Assembly (NCBI GenBank): GCA_027026255.1
Contig: JALVOT010000018.1
Span: 124,001-188,000 of the forward strand
Direction of reading: 5' to 3'
From: Caldifarciminota bacterium
GTDB lineage: Bacteria; Hydrothermota; Tepidihabitantia; SM23-42
Length of the DNA stretch: 64,000 nt
In this document: positions 47,215 through 52,557 of the stretch, piece after piece
Layout of the letters: every line of letters starts with the position of its first letter
How positions within the stretch are numbered: the first letter of the stretch is position 1
Translations under genes and position numbers: made by a program
Notes under the pieces: generated by a model
Told to the model about the DNA's origin: nothing
Database searches by the model: none
The model's input: the letters and a program-made list of their open reading frames with translations, nothing else

Positions 47215-47946
47215 CTATTCTTCAGTAAGTTTCAGATATATCTCTTCAATATTTTTCCGGCCACTAATCTCGGCAAGTTCTTCTAAGGTGCCGGTAAATT
47301 TCAATTCCCCATGATTTATAATACCAAGCCGGGTGGCGACTTCCCGGGCAAAGGAAAGGGTATGGGTGGAGATAAACAGTGTCTTTTTTTGATCCTTCAA
47401 AGAAAGAAAGGTCTCACGCACAGTCCGGGCGGTCTTAGGGTCAAGACCCACTAAGGGTTCATCAATTAAAATAAGAACAGGATTGTGCAGCAGTAATTGG
47501 CACATTATAATCCGTTGCTTCATTCCATGGGAATAACCCTCAGACAGCTCATCAATCCACTCTCCAATATCAAACTTTTCAAATAACTCTTTCGAACGCT
47601 TCTCATAATCCGCCTTTTTGACCCGATAGATACTGGCAACCAGGTTTATAAATTCCCGACCGGTCAGTTTGGGATAGATAAATGGTTCATCCGGCACATA
47701 TCCGATCAGAGATTTCGCCTTTATAGGGGACTCTTTTATATTTATACCCTCAATAAATATCTCACCCTGGGTAGGATGGAGCAGACCCGTAATAAGCTTC
47801 AGGGTGGTGGTCTTACCCGCACCATTTGGTCCCAAAAGAACAAATATTTCACCCGGACTCAATTCGAGGTTTAAGCCTTTTAATGCCCAGAATCCATTGA
47901 ACTCTTTTTTCAGGTCTTTTATTATTAATCTTTTTGAATCATTCAT
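47215..47946 (-). CDS. ABC transporter ATP-binding protein
   Basis: This 243-residue ATPase has Walker A GPNGAGKTT, a signature variant LSEGYSHGMKQR, Walker B LILIDEPLVGLDP and an H-loop His (STHTLS). It belongs to the drug/ABC-2 export subfamily. It overlaps the transglutaminase-like gene before it by 4 nt and directly abuts the permease gene. It energises the permease. Confidence 0.93.
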   Translation of the reverse strand: MNDSKRLIIKDLKKEFNGFWALKGLNLELSPGEIFVLLGPNGAGKTTTLKLITGLLHPTQGEIFIEGINIKESPIKAKSLIGYVPDEPFIYPKLTGREFINLVASIYRVKKADYEKRSKELFEKFDIGEWIDELSEGYSHGMKQRIIMCQLLLHNPVLILIDEPLVGLDPKTARTVRETFLSLKDQKKTLFISTHTLSFAREVATRLGIINHGELKFTGTLEELAEISGRKNIEEIYLKLTEE

Positions 47947-49418
47947 TCAGAATCGGATATATGAAAATCCAGGACCTCAATCGTTAATTTTCCCACCACC
48001 TTTAAAACCCCTGCCTGTTCAGAAATTCCACCCTCTTTCAATTTTAGATGACCGACATCAGCCGGAAACTGATTAAATGTAGGGTCAACCGGCACCCACT
48101 TTCCCAACCAGACCGCACACCAGGCATGATAATAATAGGCGGAACCATTAAGATTAATCAAACCAACATATATTTTTGCAGGAATGCCTGCAGCCCGCGC
48201 CAGGGCAGTAAATAGTATAGAATGCTCATTACAATCACCCTTCTTTGTCGCCAGGACATCAAGGGCTGAAGGTAAAGATGCAGTAGGGTCTTTTTTAAGC
48301 ATTTTATAGACACCGTCTGTCAACTTCGCAGCCGCCATTTTTGCATCCTTTTCATCACCGATGATATCCTTTGCAGCCTTTATAATCTTCTCATCCCGGC
48401 ATTGGATAAAGACCGTGGGTTTAAGATACTCTTTCTCTTCTTGAATCGGGATTGTAAGCACAGGAAGCTCTTCAATCCTTGGCCGCCTAAATTCCAAGGT
48501 AATCGGCGAATCTGAGACAAGAATCTGATAATCATCAACGAGGTCAAGCCCCCCGGTATCGATATTTTTCAGACTGATCTTTAAATAATCAAGTTTTCTC
48601 GGGTCAGGGATCGGTTCTTTTAGTTTTACGGAAAAAAATGAGAGGAGGTCAAATGCATCAGCAGGTTTTATCTCAGCAAGTGCCTCAGTCTTGGACAACC
48701 GAATCGTCTCCATATGCATTGCCGGAACCGCCTGTTTGATCATCTGATAATTATCATCAATCCAGAGGATTGAACTCATTCCCATAATATCAAGTTCAAC
48801 CCGGGTTCCTTCCATCTCCCTGCCCAGAACATCAACCTTCTCCTTACCCACAACCTTCAATCGTGCCTGGGTTGATGATTGGGTGGTTGGATCAAAATAG
48901 GGAATGGTTATCTCATCACCCGGCTTTAATCCCCTTTTTTTAATCACCTCTGGTAAGGCGTCCGGGAAATAAGGTTTTTCTTTAAGTTCCCTGGTCTGGG
49001 TATATTTTTTACCCTGGATAAAGGTAGTCAGGTAAAGTCTATTTCCTTCAATTTTACCTTCAAGACGTTGTTCTTCAGTATTCTTTAAAATTAAAGAAAA
49101 ATCCTTTAAGGTATATTCTCTATCAGTGCGGGCAAAGATATGGGTCGTCAGGGTCCTGGGCTGGGTCATCATAAATAGAGTCATCCGGGTGATATTTTCC
49201 ACCGTAAGGCCGGTATCGGTTCGGGTAATTCTGGAAAATGAATATCCGACTTTATTATTATTAATAAAGATTCCCGACCATTCTTCTTCAGAACCAGCTG
49301 GAGTCTCTACCTTCAGCTGGAGTGAAGAACCTGTCTTAGGACTCAGTCTGGTCAAAAAATAGACCGCACTGCCGAATATTATAACAATAATAATAGTAAT
49401 AGTAATATTTTTTTTCAT
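47943..49418 (-). CDS. Transglutaminase-like domain protein, membrane anchored
   Basis: This 491-residue protein has an N-terminal membrane anchor (ITITIIIVIIFGSAVYFL), a long beta-rich region, and a transglutaminase-like core. The triad is Cys in GDCNEHSILF, His in YYYHAWCAV and Asp in WVPVDPTF. Such domains act as proteases, peptide ligases or binding modules in the envelope. It is co-transcribed with the ABC exporter, suggesting it acts on the exporter's substrate or in envelope maintenance. AGGAGA precedes the ATG. Confidence 0.85.
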   Translation of the reverse strand: MKKNITITIIIVIIFGSAVYFLTRLSPKTGSSLQLKVETPAGSEEEWSGIFINNNKVGYSFSRITRTDTGLTVENITRMTLFMMTQPRTLTTHIFARTDREYTLKDFSLILKNTEEQRLEGKIEGNRLYLTTFIQGKKYTQTRELKEKPYFPDALPEVIKKRGLKPGDEITIPYFDPTTQSSTQARLKVVGKEKVDVLGREMEGTRVELDIMGMSSILWIDDNYQMIKQAVPAMHMETIRLSKTEALAEIKPADAFDLLSFFSVKLKEPIPDPRKLDYLKISLKNIDTGGLDLVDDYQILVSDSPITLEFRRPRIEELPVLTIPIQEEKEYLKPTVFIQCRDEKIIKAAKDIIGDEKDAKMAAAKLTDGVYKMLKKDPTASLPSALDVLATKKGDCNEHSILFTALARAAGIPAKIYVGLINLNGSAYYYHAWCAVWLGKWVPVDPTFNQFPADVGHLKLKEGGISEQAGVLKVVGKLTIEVLDFHISDSE

Positions 49419-49435: not shown

Positions 49436-49463
49436 ATTATAGCGATTAAATCTATCGGGTCAA
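49436..49463 (-). promoter_or_regulatory. Promoter of the transglutaminase-ABC operon
   Basis: Minus strand: TTGACC (49458-49463), 16-bp spacer, TATAAT (49436-49441), with AGGAGA in the leader. The target duplication of the inserted element begins 4 bp upstream of the -35. Confidence 0.75.
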
Positions 49464-49475
49464 GAATCTATTGGT

Positions 49476-49854
49476 CTGACTCCTCTCCACTTTTTGTCTC
49501 GATTTTTTGTAAACTATGTTACAATATAGCCGAGGGGCGTCTCGCCCCGAGGCAGGGCGCCTGGCGAGCTGCCGGAGTTTCTGAAACGAGTTAAGAATGA
49601 CAAACCTCCAGCGGGCGGCGGGGACGCCGCCCGCGCTGAGAAAAATAGAAGCACCACCAGCCCTGGTAAAAATTGAACCGGGCGAAGATGGTAGAGAAAT
49701 TTTTCAAATGACCAATAAAATAATATAAAAAAAGTAAAACGAAGTTGTTGAATATTTTTCGTCCTGATTTAATAATCTCAGAGAAGTTTATTCTATCCAG
49801 AATACCGTTGCAATCAATCCAGGAGGCACAATGAAAAAAGTGGAGAGGAGTCAG
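49476..49854. mobile_element. 379-bp non-autonomous element (MITE-like) with 20-bp TIRs and 9-bp target duplication
   Basis: The left end CTGACTCCTCTCCACTTTTT (49476-49495) is repeated in inverted form at 49835-49854. TCTATTGGT flanks the element on both sides (49467-49475 and 49855-49863). That is the structure of a transposon insertion with a 9-bp target duplication. The inside has no transposase and no long open frame. It carries GC-rich hairpins (GGGGCG/CGCCCC at 49534-49548 and a 10-bp perfect hairpin at 49611-49634). It sits between the RND gene stop and the next promoter. Confidence 0.85.
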
Positions 49855-49866
49855 TCTATTGGTCTT

Positions 49867-52557
49867 TTAAGTATTTTTTCCAGATTTATATTTGAGACTT
49901 ATAATTGAAGGCAGGAAAATAATTGTGGTAAGAAAACAGGCAGCCACCCCCAAGGTCAAAAGTAGACCCAAACTGACAAAACCCTGATACTTTGAAACCA
50001 TAAGGCTGCCGAATCCGGCAATAGTTGTAAGAGAGGTAAGAAGGATGGCCTTGCCCGTGCTTCTTAAAACCACCGGGGTTTTATTAAATCCCTCAAAAAT
50101 GTAACGGTGGATTAAATGGACGCCGTCGTCAATCCCGATGCCGACGATCATCGGGATACCCATAACATTGACAACATTGAACATCGCCCCAAACGATTGC
50201 AAAAGCCCGACCATCCAAATACCCCCGGCAATCAAAGGGATAATCCCCAACAGGGCAAGCCACAAACTGCGAAAATCCATCCATAGTAACAAAAAAACAA
50301 TAAAAATTGTAAAAATAGTTGCTCTAAGTCCATCCCGACCAATGTAGTTTATCAGTTTTAAAAACATTGGTGGAAGACCGGTGCTTTTGGAACTTATTCT
50401 TCCGAGCTGTCTGGTAAAGGTCGTCAAATATTGGTAGTTCCAGACATATCCCCTGGGATATATTATGACAAGATACTGGTCACCCGATTTATTAATAAAA
50501 TGATTTTTTATCTGATCGGGCAGGTTATCAAGGGTGATATATTGTGAATTCGCCATTTTCAATATTCTTTTTTTCAAACCCTCAAGAAAATTTTTCTGAA
50601 AGACATTGAGGCGCCCAAGTGCCTGGTCTGGTTCTTTTTTTATCTTCTCAACGATAGTAAGAATCAGATTATCTGCATCTTCTTTATCCGGTCTACCAAT
50701 GATGCTCTGACATTTTCTGTCAACCCGATCCTGACCGCCCGTAAAGGCGAGCTGGCCGAGTTCGTATATGTTCATATCTAAACGTTCCAGTTCTTCAATT
50801 ATTTTATTAAGATTATTTTTGCTGTTCGCTTTATACCCTGCATTTGCTGCCTGTTGATGAATTCTTTCAATGTATAATCTACGCCTTTTCTGTTCCTGAA
50901 GTGTCGGCAAATACTCACTGATACTGTTTACCGCACCAACCGAAGGCATCGCTTTGGCTCTTTTCACAACAGCCCGTGCCTCATCAATTGAAGATGCAGC
51001 CACCATAGCAAAATCAGGGCTCAAATCAAATGCCTTAATGATTGTATCCTGAAGGGCAACGGTTGGTAAACCCTCAGGTTCAATATTGAGCATATTGTAG
51101 TCAAAGCGGACCCGGAATGCCTGATACAGCATATATCCGGTGATTGCGCAACCGATCAGGAGAAACAGCATCGGTCTGCTGACAATCAACCGACCGATAT
51201 TCTCAAGGGCGGTGAACTCAATATGGTGCGTTTTGCTCGGCCGTCTACTCACTCTGGTCATAACCCTCTCGCGGGCAATGAGCAATGCAGGCAGCAGGAT
51301 GATTGTTACCAGCATTGCACAGATAATACCAATACCCAGGACAATACCCATCTCCTTTATTCCCCTGGTGACTGAAATCGTCAGGGCGAAGAATGCACAG
51401 GCGGTGGTCAATGCACCGGTGACAATCCCTGGACCTGCCCGGATTAACGCCTGTTCCATCGCCAAACCCGGTTCCTTATCAATTACCCTCCGTTCTGAAT
51501 AGAGGGAGATAATATGAATTGAATAATCAATACCCAGGCCGATCAGAATGACTGCGAACATCGAGGTCATAAGATTAAGCCGACCCAGAAAAAGACCGAC
51601 GAGCCCGGCCGCAATGACAACTGAAACAATAAGATTGAGCGCAGCAAGAACTGGTGACGACCACATCCGGAAGGTGAGAATGAAGAGAACAAGCACAAGC
51701 ACCAAAGCAATAATCGAAGCGATCCTCATATCCCGAGTGGTATATTCCATCTCATCCTTCTGCAGGGGAATCATCCCGGTGATTCCAGCTCTGACATCAG
51801 AAAAGTCTTTGCCTGCCTTATCAATGATTTTTTGTATTGCCATCGTCGCCTTGATATCTTCATCAACATTCATTGATGAAAATGTCGGTTTGATATTTAT
51901 GAGCAGGGTTGTTTTATCCTGTGAGATTATATAAGGATCACCAAGGAGAAAACGGTCTGCGGCAGCATCCACTCGGGCAGAATCGACCTCTTTTAAAATC
52001 AGAAAACCATTAAGGGTATGAAGCAAATACTCAAGGCCATCAAGATAACGGACTGCTTTATCCTCTTTTTCTCTGGTACTTAATGGCTCCTCTTCTTCAA
52101 TATAGGTCTTTTCAAAATTATTGTTGATTTCCTTTAAAAGCGGAAGCAGATTGAGGTCTTTGAAAAGTGTAAGGTTCTGTTCCAGATCCTTTGCCTTACT
52201 GAGCATAAATCCGTGTTCGGCAAAAAATTGCTTGTCAATCTTATAATCTACCCTTTCCACATAATCGGTTAACTTTTCAATTTCAGGGGCAATCCGCTCG
52301 GCAAATTTCTTAATCTGTGCTTCCTTACCCTGCACCACAACGATAATTGTGGAGGTGCTTTTATATTCCTTTAAGACCCGGTTAAACTCCTTTACCATAG
52401 GGTCTCCCGCAGGCAGAAGGTCGGCCCAGTGCATCTCCATCTTAATCTGTGACGCCGGGATTGCAGCAAGGACAGTAATGAACAGGATTGCGGTGATAAC
52501 CAGCCAGGGATGAGCCGCCGCGAAATGTGCCCAATTTTTGAGTATTCTTTCTCTCAT
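49867..52557 (-). CDS. RND/MMPL superfamily exporter
   Basis: This 896-residue protein has the duplicated six-plus-six helix layout with a large periplasmic loop after helices 1 and 7. The conserved cores ILIGLGIDYSIHIISLYSE and MIVGIGIDDGVHLIHRYIF carry the proton-path Asp residues. It resembles HpnN/MMPL-type lipid exporters. Its operon partners are a LolA-like lipoprotein-sorting protein and an outer-membrane barrel, so it probably moves a lipid or lipoprotein to the outer membrane. Its start overlaps the end of the barrel gene by one nucleotide. Confidence 0.9.
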   Translation of the reverse strand: MRERILKNWAHFAAAHPWLVITAILFITVLAAIPASQIKMEMHWADLLPAGDPMVKEFNRVLKEYKSTSTIIVVVQGKEAQIKKFAERIAPEIEKLTDYVERVDYKIDKQFFAEHGFMLSKAKDLEQNLTLFKDLNLLPLLKEINNNFEKTYIEEEEPLSTREKEDKAVRYLDGLEYLLHTLNGFLILKEVDSARVDAAADRFLLGDPYIISQDKTTLLINIKPTFSSMNVDEDIKATMAIQKIIDKAGKDFSDVRAGITGMIPLQKDEMEYTTRDMRIASIIALVLVLVLFILTFRMWSSPVLAALNLIVSVVIAAGLVGLFLGRLNLMTSMFAVILIGLGIDYSIHIISLYSERRVIDKEPGLAMEQALIRAGPGIVTGALTTACAFFALTISVTRGIKEMGIVLGIGIICAMLVTIILLPALLIARERVMTRVSRRPSKTHHIEFTALENIGRLIVSRPMLFLLIGCAITGYMLYQAFRVRFDYNMLNIEPEGLPTVALQDTIIKAFDLSPDFAMVAASSIDEARAVVKRAKAMPSVGAVNSISEYLPTLQEQKRRRLYIERIHQQAANAGYKANSKNNLNKIIEELERLDMNIYELGQLAFTGGQDRVDRKCQSIIGRPDKEDADNLILTIVEKIKKEPDQALGRLNVFQKNFLEGLKKRILKMANSQYITLDNLPDQIKNHFINKSGDQYLVIIYPRGYVWNYQYLTTFTRQLGRISSKSTGLPPMFLKLINYIGRDGLRATIFTIFIVFLLLWMDFRSLWLALLGIIPLIAGGIWMVGLLQSFGAMFNVVNVMGIPMIVGIGIDDGVHLIHRYIFEGFNKTPVVLRSTGKAILLTSLTTIAGFGSLMVSKYQGFVSLGLLLTLGVAACFLTTIIFLPSIISLKYKSGKNT

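Follow-up and report, generated by a model that had tools for sequence, protein, structure and literature searches.

A 379-bp element without a transposase gene (49476-49854) lies immediately outside the -35 box of a promoter in the window, the 64,000-nucleotide stretch of DNA analysed here. The locus raises the question of whether this adjacency is a chance outcome of one insertion or the result of a preference of the element. The original prediction had mentioned it as a side remark; far from being incidental, it reflects a targeting rule that the whole family follows. The features of the locus are listed below.

47943-49418, minus strand: gene downstream of the targeted promoter, 491 aa, transglutaminase-like by inspection
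49436-49441, minus strand: -10 box TATAAT of the targeted promoter, spacer 16
49463-49458, minus strand: -35 box of the targeted promoter, TTGACC, located 12 nt outward from the left terminal inverted repeat (TIR)
49464-49466, minus strand: 3-nt gap between target duplication and -35 box
49467-49475, no strand: left copy of the target duplication, 9 bp, TCTATTGGT
49476-49495, plus strand: left TIR, 20 bp, exact, CTGACTCCTCTCCACTTTTT
49476-49509, plus strand: homology to the left end of an autonomous insertion sequence (IS) of relative G011, 94% over element positions 1-34
49534-49548, plus strand: GC hairpin 1, GGGGCG-TCT-CGCCCC, element positions 59-73
49575-49601, minus strand: degraded REP-like palindrome, GTCATTCTTAACTCGTTTCAGAAACTC
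49611-49634, plus strand: GC hairpin 2, GCGGGCGGCG-GGGA-CGCCGCCCGC, element positions 136-159
49622-49648, plus strand: 27-bp unit, GGACGCCGCCCGCGCTGAGAAAAATRG
49721-49831, plus strand: remnant of an IS transposase C-terminus with one stop, 65% amino acid identity to residues 220-256, own transposase fragment (L031)
49835-49854, minus strand: right TIR, 20 bp, exact match to CTGACTCCTCTCCACTTTTT
49855-49863, no strand: right copy of the target duplication, 9 bp, TCTATTGGT
49867-52557, minus strand: upstream neighbour gene, 896 aa, RND-type by inspection

On the minus strand the site reads, in order, duplication (ACCAATAGA), TTC, TTGACC, 16 nt, TATAAT and the 491-aa gene. Perfect 20-bp TIRs and a 9-bp duplication had been described around the 379-bp body, and both pairs are indeed exact; the GC hairpins and the lack of a transposase gene in the body were found as described. 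The insertion had been placed 4 bp from the -35 box. The adjacency holds, but TTGACC begins 3 bp beyond the duplication, and this gap has the same length at nearly all copies. On the other side, the stop codon of the RND gene (49867-49869) lies 3 bp past the right duplication copy. The idea that the element itself supplies the promoter was rejected, as the promoter lies in unique flank outside the duplication.

Orthologues of the 491-aa gene are present in 22 of the 23 genomes searched. Its orthologue in G001, the closest relative (81%), has the same promoter and no element. Since the upstream neighbour there is a different gene, the pre-insertion sequence is not directly readable, and none of the orthologues in relatives was adjoined by an RND orthologue. 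The claim that the element separates two envelope operons holds for the present layout. In G002, an element with the same TIRs lies 12 nt before the orthologous promoter, and in G026 a same-TIR element occupies the same intergenic region at offset 12 from a divergent promoter.

The element is no single-copy sequence, the case that had been named as refuting the prediction: about 40 copies are present in the 2.1-Mb genome, which one order-level relative places in the WOR-3/Caldifarciminota lineage. Its TIR pattern gave 75 matches at up to 2 mismatches (reversed control, 0), BLAST with the whole element gave 46 matching pieces, and the transposase with the same ends was recovered as one broken fragment (L031). 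Copies with both ends measure 312-475 bp, plus one 239-bp pair, most have 9-bp duplications, and by inspection almost all are intergenic. Being short and multicopy, with TIRs and target-site duplications and no transposase gene, the element is a miniature inverted-repeat transposable element (MITE), and the many copies support the non-autonomous character originally predicted. A recent insertion, also predicted, was not borne out. Across 30 aligned copies the pairwise identity averages 90%, the copies closest to the one in the window match it at about 94-95% of ungapped columns, and the genome yielded no intact transposase; the insertion is therefore not demonstrably recent. Once the local transposase had decayed, the MITE probably no longer moved.

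Some copies have unusual surroundings. L002, L017 and L018 (G000 contig C4) have in common a near-identical right flank of about 200 bp. This flank can be read as the remains of a protein, and the MITE is probably carried there by another mobile element. The copy L035 (G000:C9:21500-24000; 1403-2460) lacks matching duplications and is separated by 27 nt from a CRISPR-like array with at least 16 units of a 30-bp repeat (GTTTCAATTCCTCATAGGTAGACTATTAAT). Three MITE palindromes spaced roughly 215-225 bp apart at G000:C17:143204-143670 (within L151) are apparently a tandemly duplicated MITE fragment.

Judged by its sequence, the MITE descends from an insertion sequence of the IS4 family that resembles IS10. 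An IS of G011 has a left end that matches element bases 1-34, and window positions 49721-49831 read as transposase residues 220-256. The L031 remnant in the same genome has a matching right TIR, lacks the left end and is broken by a frameshift (alignment by eye); an intact transposase was not found in this assembly, whose 18 contigs could hide one. An IS of G026 (L125, 1183 bp) has the same TIRs as the element and an intact 365-aa ORF. With a same-ended transposase present, broken at home and intact in a relative, the mobilisation in trans that had been predicted gains support.

The transposase signature Y(2)R(3)E(6)K is legible as YRRRMTIEEGFRDLK, YGRRMLIEEGFRDLK and YGHRMRIEESFRDFK. Pfam DDE_Tnp_1 was matched with 51-62 bits (cut-off 23), and NCBIfam IS4_2 with 154.8 bits by L119 (cut-off 152) and with 146.2 bits, just below, by L125. 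Pfam and NCBIfam searches of the transposases gave IS4-type matches and no Mutator-type family. The core of a predicted transposase model, of modest overall confidence, had the Tn5 transposase as its best fold match, and a sequence search of solved structures returned nothing relevant. The IS10 subgroup is characterised by CT ends, a 9-bp duplication, the YREK motif and a single transposase ORF (PMC2266710). The ends here begin with CT and the duplication is 9 bp, as in that subgroup of the IS4 family; the autonomous ISs measure 1173, 1183, 1256 and 1260 bp, against a subgroup criterion of 1200-1350 bp.

The targeting rule was formulated as a sigma70-type promoter that points outward and whose -35 box lies at exactly 12 nt from the TIR (the 9-bp duplication plus 3), promoters being called as consensus matches. 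A scan of the outward flanks revealed such a promoter at one end of nearly every copy. Offset 12 was found at 42 of 84 unique ends in the own genome and at 22 of 45 in relatives, and almost none at other offsets in either set. In a hold-out of 40 further stretches, excluded from forming the rule, 31 of 57 new ends were at offset 12 and at most 2 at any other. Pooled, 83 of 163 unique ends lie at offset 12 and 0-4 at other offsets, with a background of about 0.3 per offset (log10 P about -175). Since there is a single promoter side per element, no more than about half of all ends could be expected to show the offset. Promoters facing the element were not enriched, with at most 2 at any offset.

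Among 47 duplication-flanked elements, 44 had the promoter at one end, two at both and one (L006) at neither. In single-promoter elements it lay at the left end in 29 and at the right end in 28, so that both orientations are equally common. Elements without matching duplications comprised six with promoters at both ends and three with none, as would be expected after recombination between copies. One element of G011 (C45; L200, 410-643) has a perfect duplication and lies between divergent promoters, with a -35 box 12 nt from both ends.

The rule is not confined to this MITE. Of 65 genomes of the class, 16 contain the pattern TIR-N12-TTGACA (control matches, 0). Autonomous IS ends (L119, L120, L125, L128) follow it, as do MITEs of relatives with different cargo and a second IS subfamily (L178, L183) with other TIRs and perfect 9-bp duplications. 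One of the autonomous ISs (L120, G011:C51) is followed, at a distance of 12 nt, by the -35 box of a promoter apparently driving a putative tRNA gene. The insertion sites compared across these genomes show the family inserting at a constant position with respect to sigma70-type promoters, in either orientation and with the promoter preserved. By rough extrapolation from about 14 strong promoters in the 64-kb window, including the element's own, some 460 would exist genome-wide, of which about 10% are occupied.

How the site is found can be outlined as follows. The element keeps the IS ends and a 3' piece of the transposase gene, and palindromic and repeat sequence has replaced the middle. The IS transposase would move the MITE in trans by cut-and-paste, its staggered 9-bp cut leaving 3 nt before the -35 hexamer and thereby sparing the promoter. 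RNA polymerase bound at the promoter may bring the complex of transposase and ends to the site, through its sigma region 4 or alpha C-terminal domain. If the spacer is 16 nt and the usual numbering applies, the duplicated 9 bp would lie at about -46 to -38, the position of the proximal UP element, with its centre near -42. The alpha C-terminal domain of the polymerase binds UP elements at -46 to -38, and class II activators sit near -42. The duplication would coincide with the position of this domain, which suggests docking beside sigma region 4. That an IS4/IS10-like MITE moved in trans, with its transposase-end complex docked via promoter-bound RNA polymerase, has in our view somewhat better than an even chance of being correct.

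The most serious rival is that the transposase itself reads TTGACA, with C or A preferred just before it, 3 nt beyond the cut, and that insertions at coding sites were lost by selection. The -35 box is near enough to the cut for contact and within reach of the transpososome, so polymerase is not strictly required. The -35 hexamer is the most conserved part of the target, the invariance of TTG being by construction in an alignment anchored on it, and 43 of 47 sites have C or A at position -1. Of 48 element-adjacent -35 boxes, 40 are followed, at spacing 16, by a -10 box that matches at 5/6 positions or better, vs 14 of 102 TTGAC sites of the window (Fisher p 9e-17). Most intergenic TTGAC sites are promoters anyway, 13 of 19 in the window having such a -10 box, and recognition of TTGACA with loss of gene-disrupting insertions could therefore give much of this enrichment. 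For the same reason direct reading keeps about a third of the likelihood. Against it, 82 of 101 window TTGAC sites are inside genes, whereas promoters are the site of 46 of the 47 copies flanked by duplications, and selection alone would have to purge nearly all coding insertions. Weak -35 boxes (TTGATT, TTGAAT, TTGTCA) at sites with a perfect TATAAT also count against direct reading of the hexamer.

A host function, as regulatory RNA, insulator or terminator, that keeps the element at promoters so that its position reflects that function is far less probable. The middle of the element consists of the GC hairpins, the degraded REP-like palindrome and the 27-bp unit, which in other copies occurs in variable tandem number like a minisatellite. 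Intact palindromes of the GTCATTCTTAACTCGTTTCAGAAACTC type are scattered over G001 and G002 and also lie within MITEs of G001; related palindromes are found in MITEs of both G001 and G011. Dozens of copies of the REP-like palindrome (GTCATTCCGAACTTGTTTCGGAATCTC) occur in the G002 genome, often less than 100 bp from contig ends, and it therefore probably breaks assemblies. The strong folding of the element (z about -8) and the roughly estimated occupancy of strong promoters would suit a function in the host. A structured RNA is nevertheless unsupported: an Rfam search of the element matched no family, hairpin 1 is nearly invariant among copies, and the hairpins, which hardly vary, showed no meaningful covariation among copies (1 of 16 pairs with a double change) and so give no evidence for RNA function. 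A terminator or insulator was rejected, as no intrinsic terminator was found in or near the element. The equal frequency of both orientations and the sharing of the rule by autonomous ISs and by MITEs with different cargo likewise argue against a host function. Least credible of all, random insertion with survival only just upstream of promoters would account for the intergenic copies, since insertion upstream of a -35 box spares the gene, but it predicts survivors at many distances and is refuted by the exact offset; moreover, single copies of IS4 relatives in Thermus, cyanobacteria and Psychrobacter (about 25-29% identity) had no offset-12 promoter.

Bacterial promoter-upstream integration is already known, as far as found in the open-access literature searched, for Mutator-like elements only. 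TnGBS, ISLre2 and ISKra4 have Mutator-like p-MULT transposases and insert 15-17 nt (peak 16) ahead of the -35 box at sigmaA promoters, and they have been proposed to dock on the polymerase initiation complex (PMC3942029). Like these, the present elements are DDE transposons that keep a constant spacing to the -35 box on its upstream side, and near-perfect inverted repeats go with insertion both ways round in both groups. They differ in an IS4/Tn5-like instead of a Mutator-like transposase, in a distance of 12 instead of 15-17 nt, and, compared with the conjugative element TnGBS, in comprising ISs and many MITEs. Promoter-upstream targeting by IS4-type elements was not reported in the open-access literature found, and the word 'promoter' is absent from the 2008 review of the IS4 family (PMC2266710). 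What is new is an apparently independent IS4/Tn5-type lineage with promoter targeting at 12 nt and abundant MITEs. Whether this lineage independently evolved tethering to RNA polymerase at -46 to -38, leaving the promoter undamaged and placing MITEs on about one in ten strong sigma70 promoters of a WOR-3-lineage genome, we consider an evenly balanced question.

With IS10-subgroup members of the IS4 family such as ISTth2 of Thermus (PMC6352166) the family has in common YREK, 5'-CT ends, the 9-bp duplication and a single ORF; its ISs are slightly shorter (1173-1260 bp) than is usual in that subgroup, and the offset-12 promoter is absent from the ISTth2 copy and the cyanobacterial relatives examined. 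BrickBuilt of Porphyromonas gingivalis (about 20 copies) is likewise a bacterial intergenic MITE with an internal variable-number tandem repeat, but it is unrelated in sequence, and a fixed position relative to host promoters is not described for it (PMC4596501). In uncultured bacteria, elements of the present kind mark sigma70-type promoters at single-base resolution, and a dedicated promoter-targeting transposase would serve as a promoter-mapping tool; the sharp offset makes the mechanism directly testable. As an analogy only, the yeast retrotransposons Ty1 (PMC10050235) and Ty3, which are eukaryotic retroelements linked to RNA polymerase III, also integrate just upstream of polymerase-bound promoters, a harmless niche. 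A second, unrelated transposase superfamily with another fixed distance suggests that this safe-haven strategy evolved repeatedly, as the comparison with yeast Ty elements illustrates.
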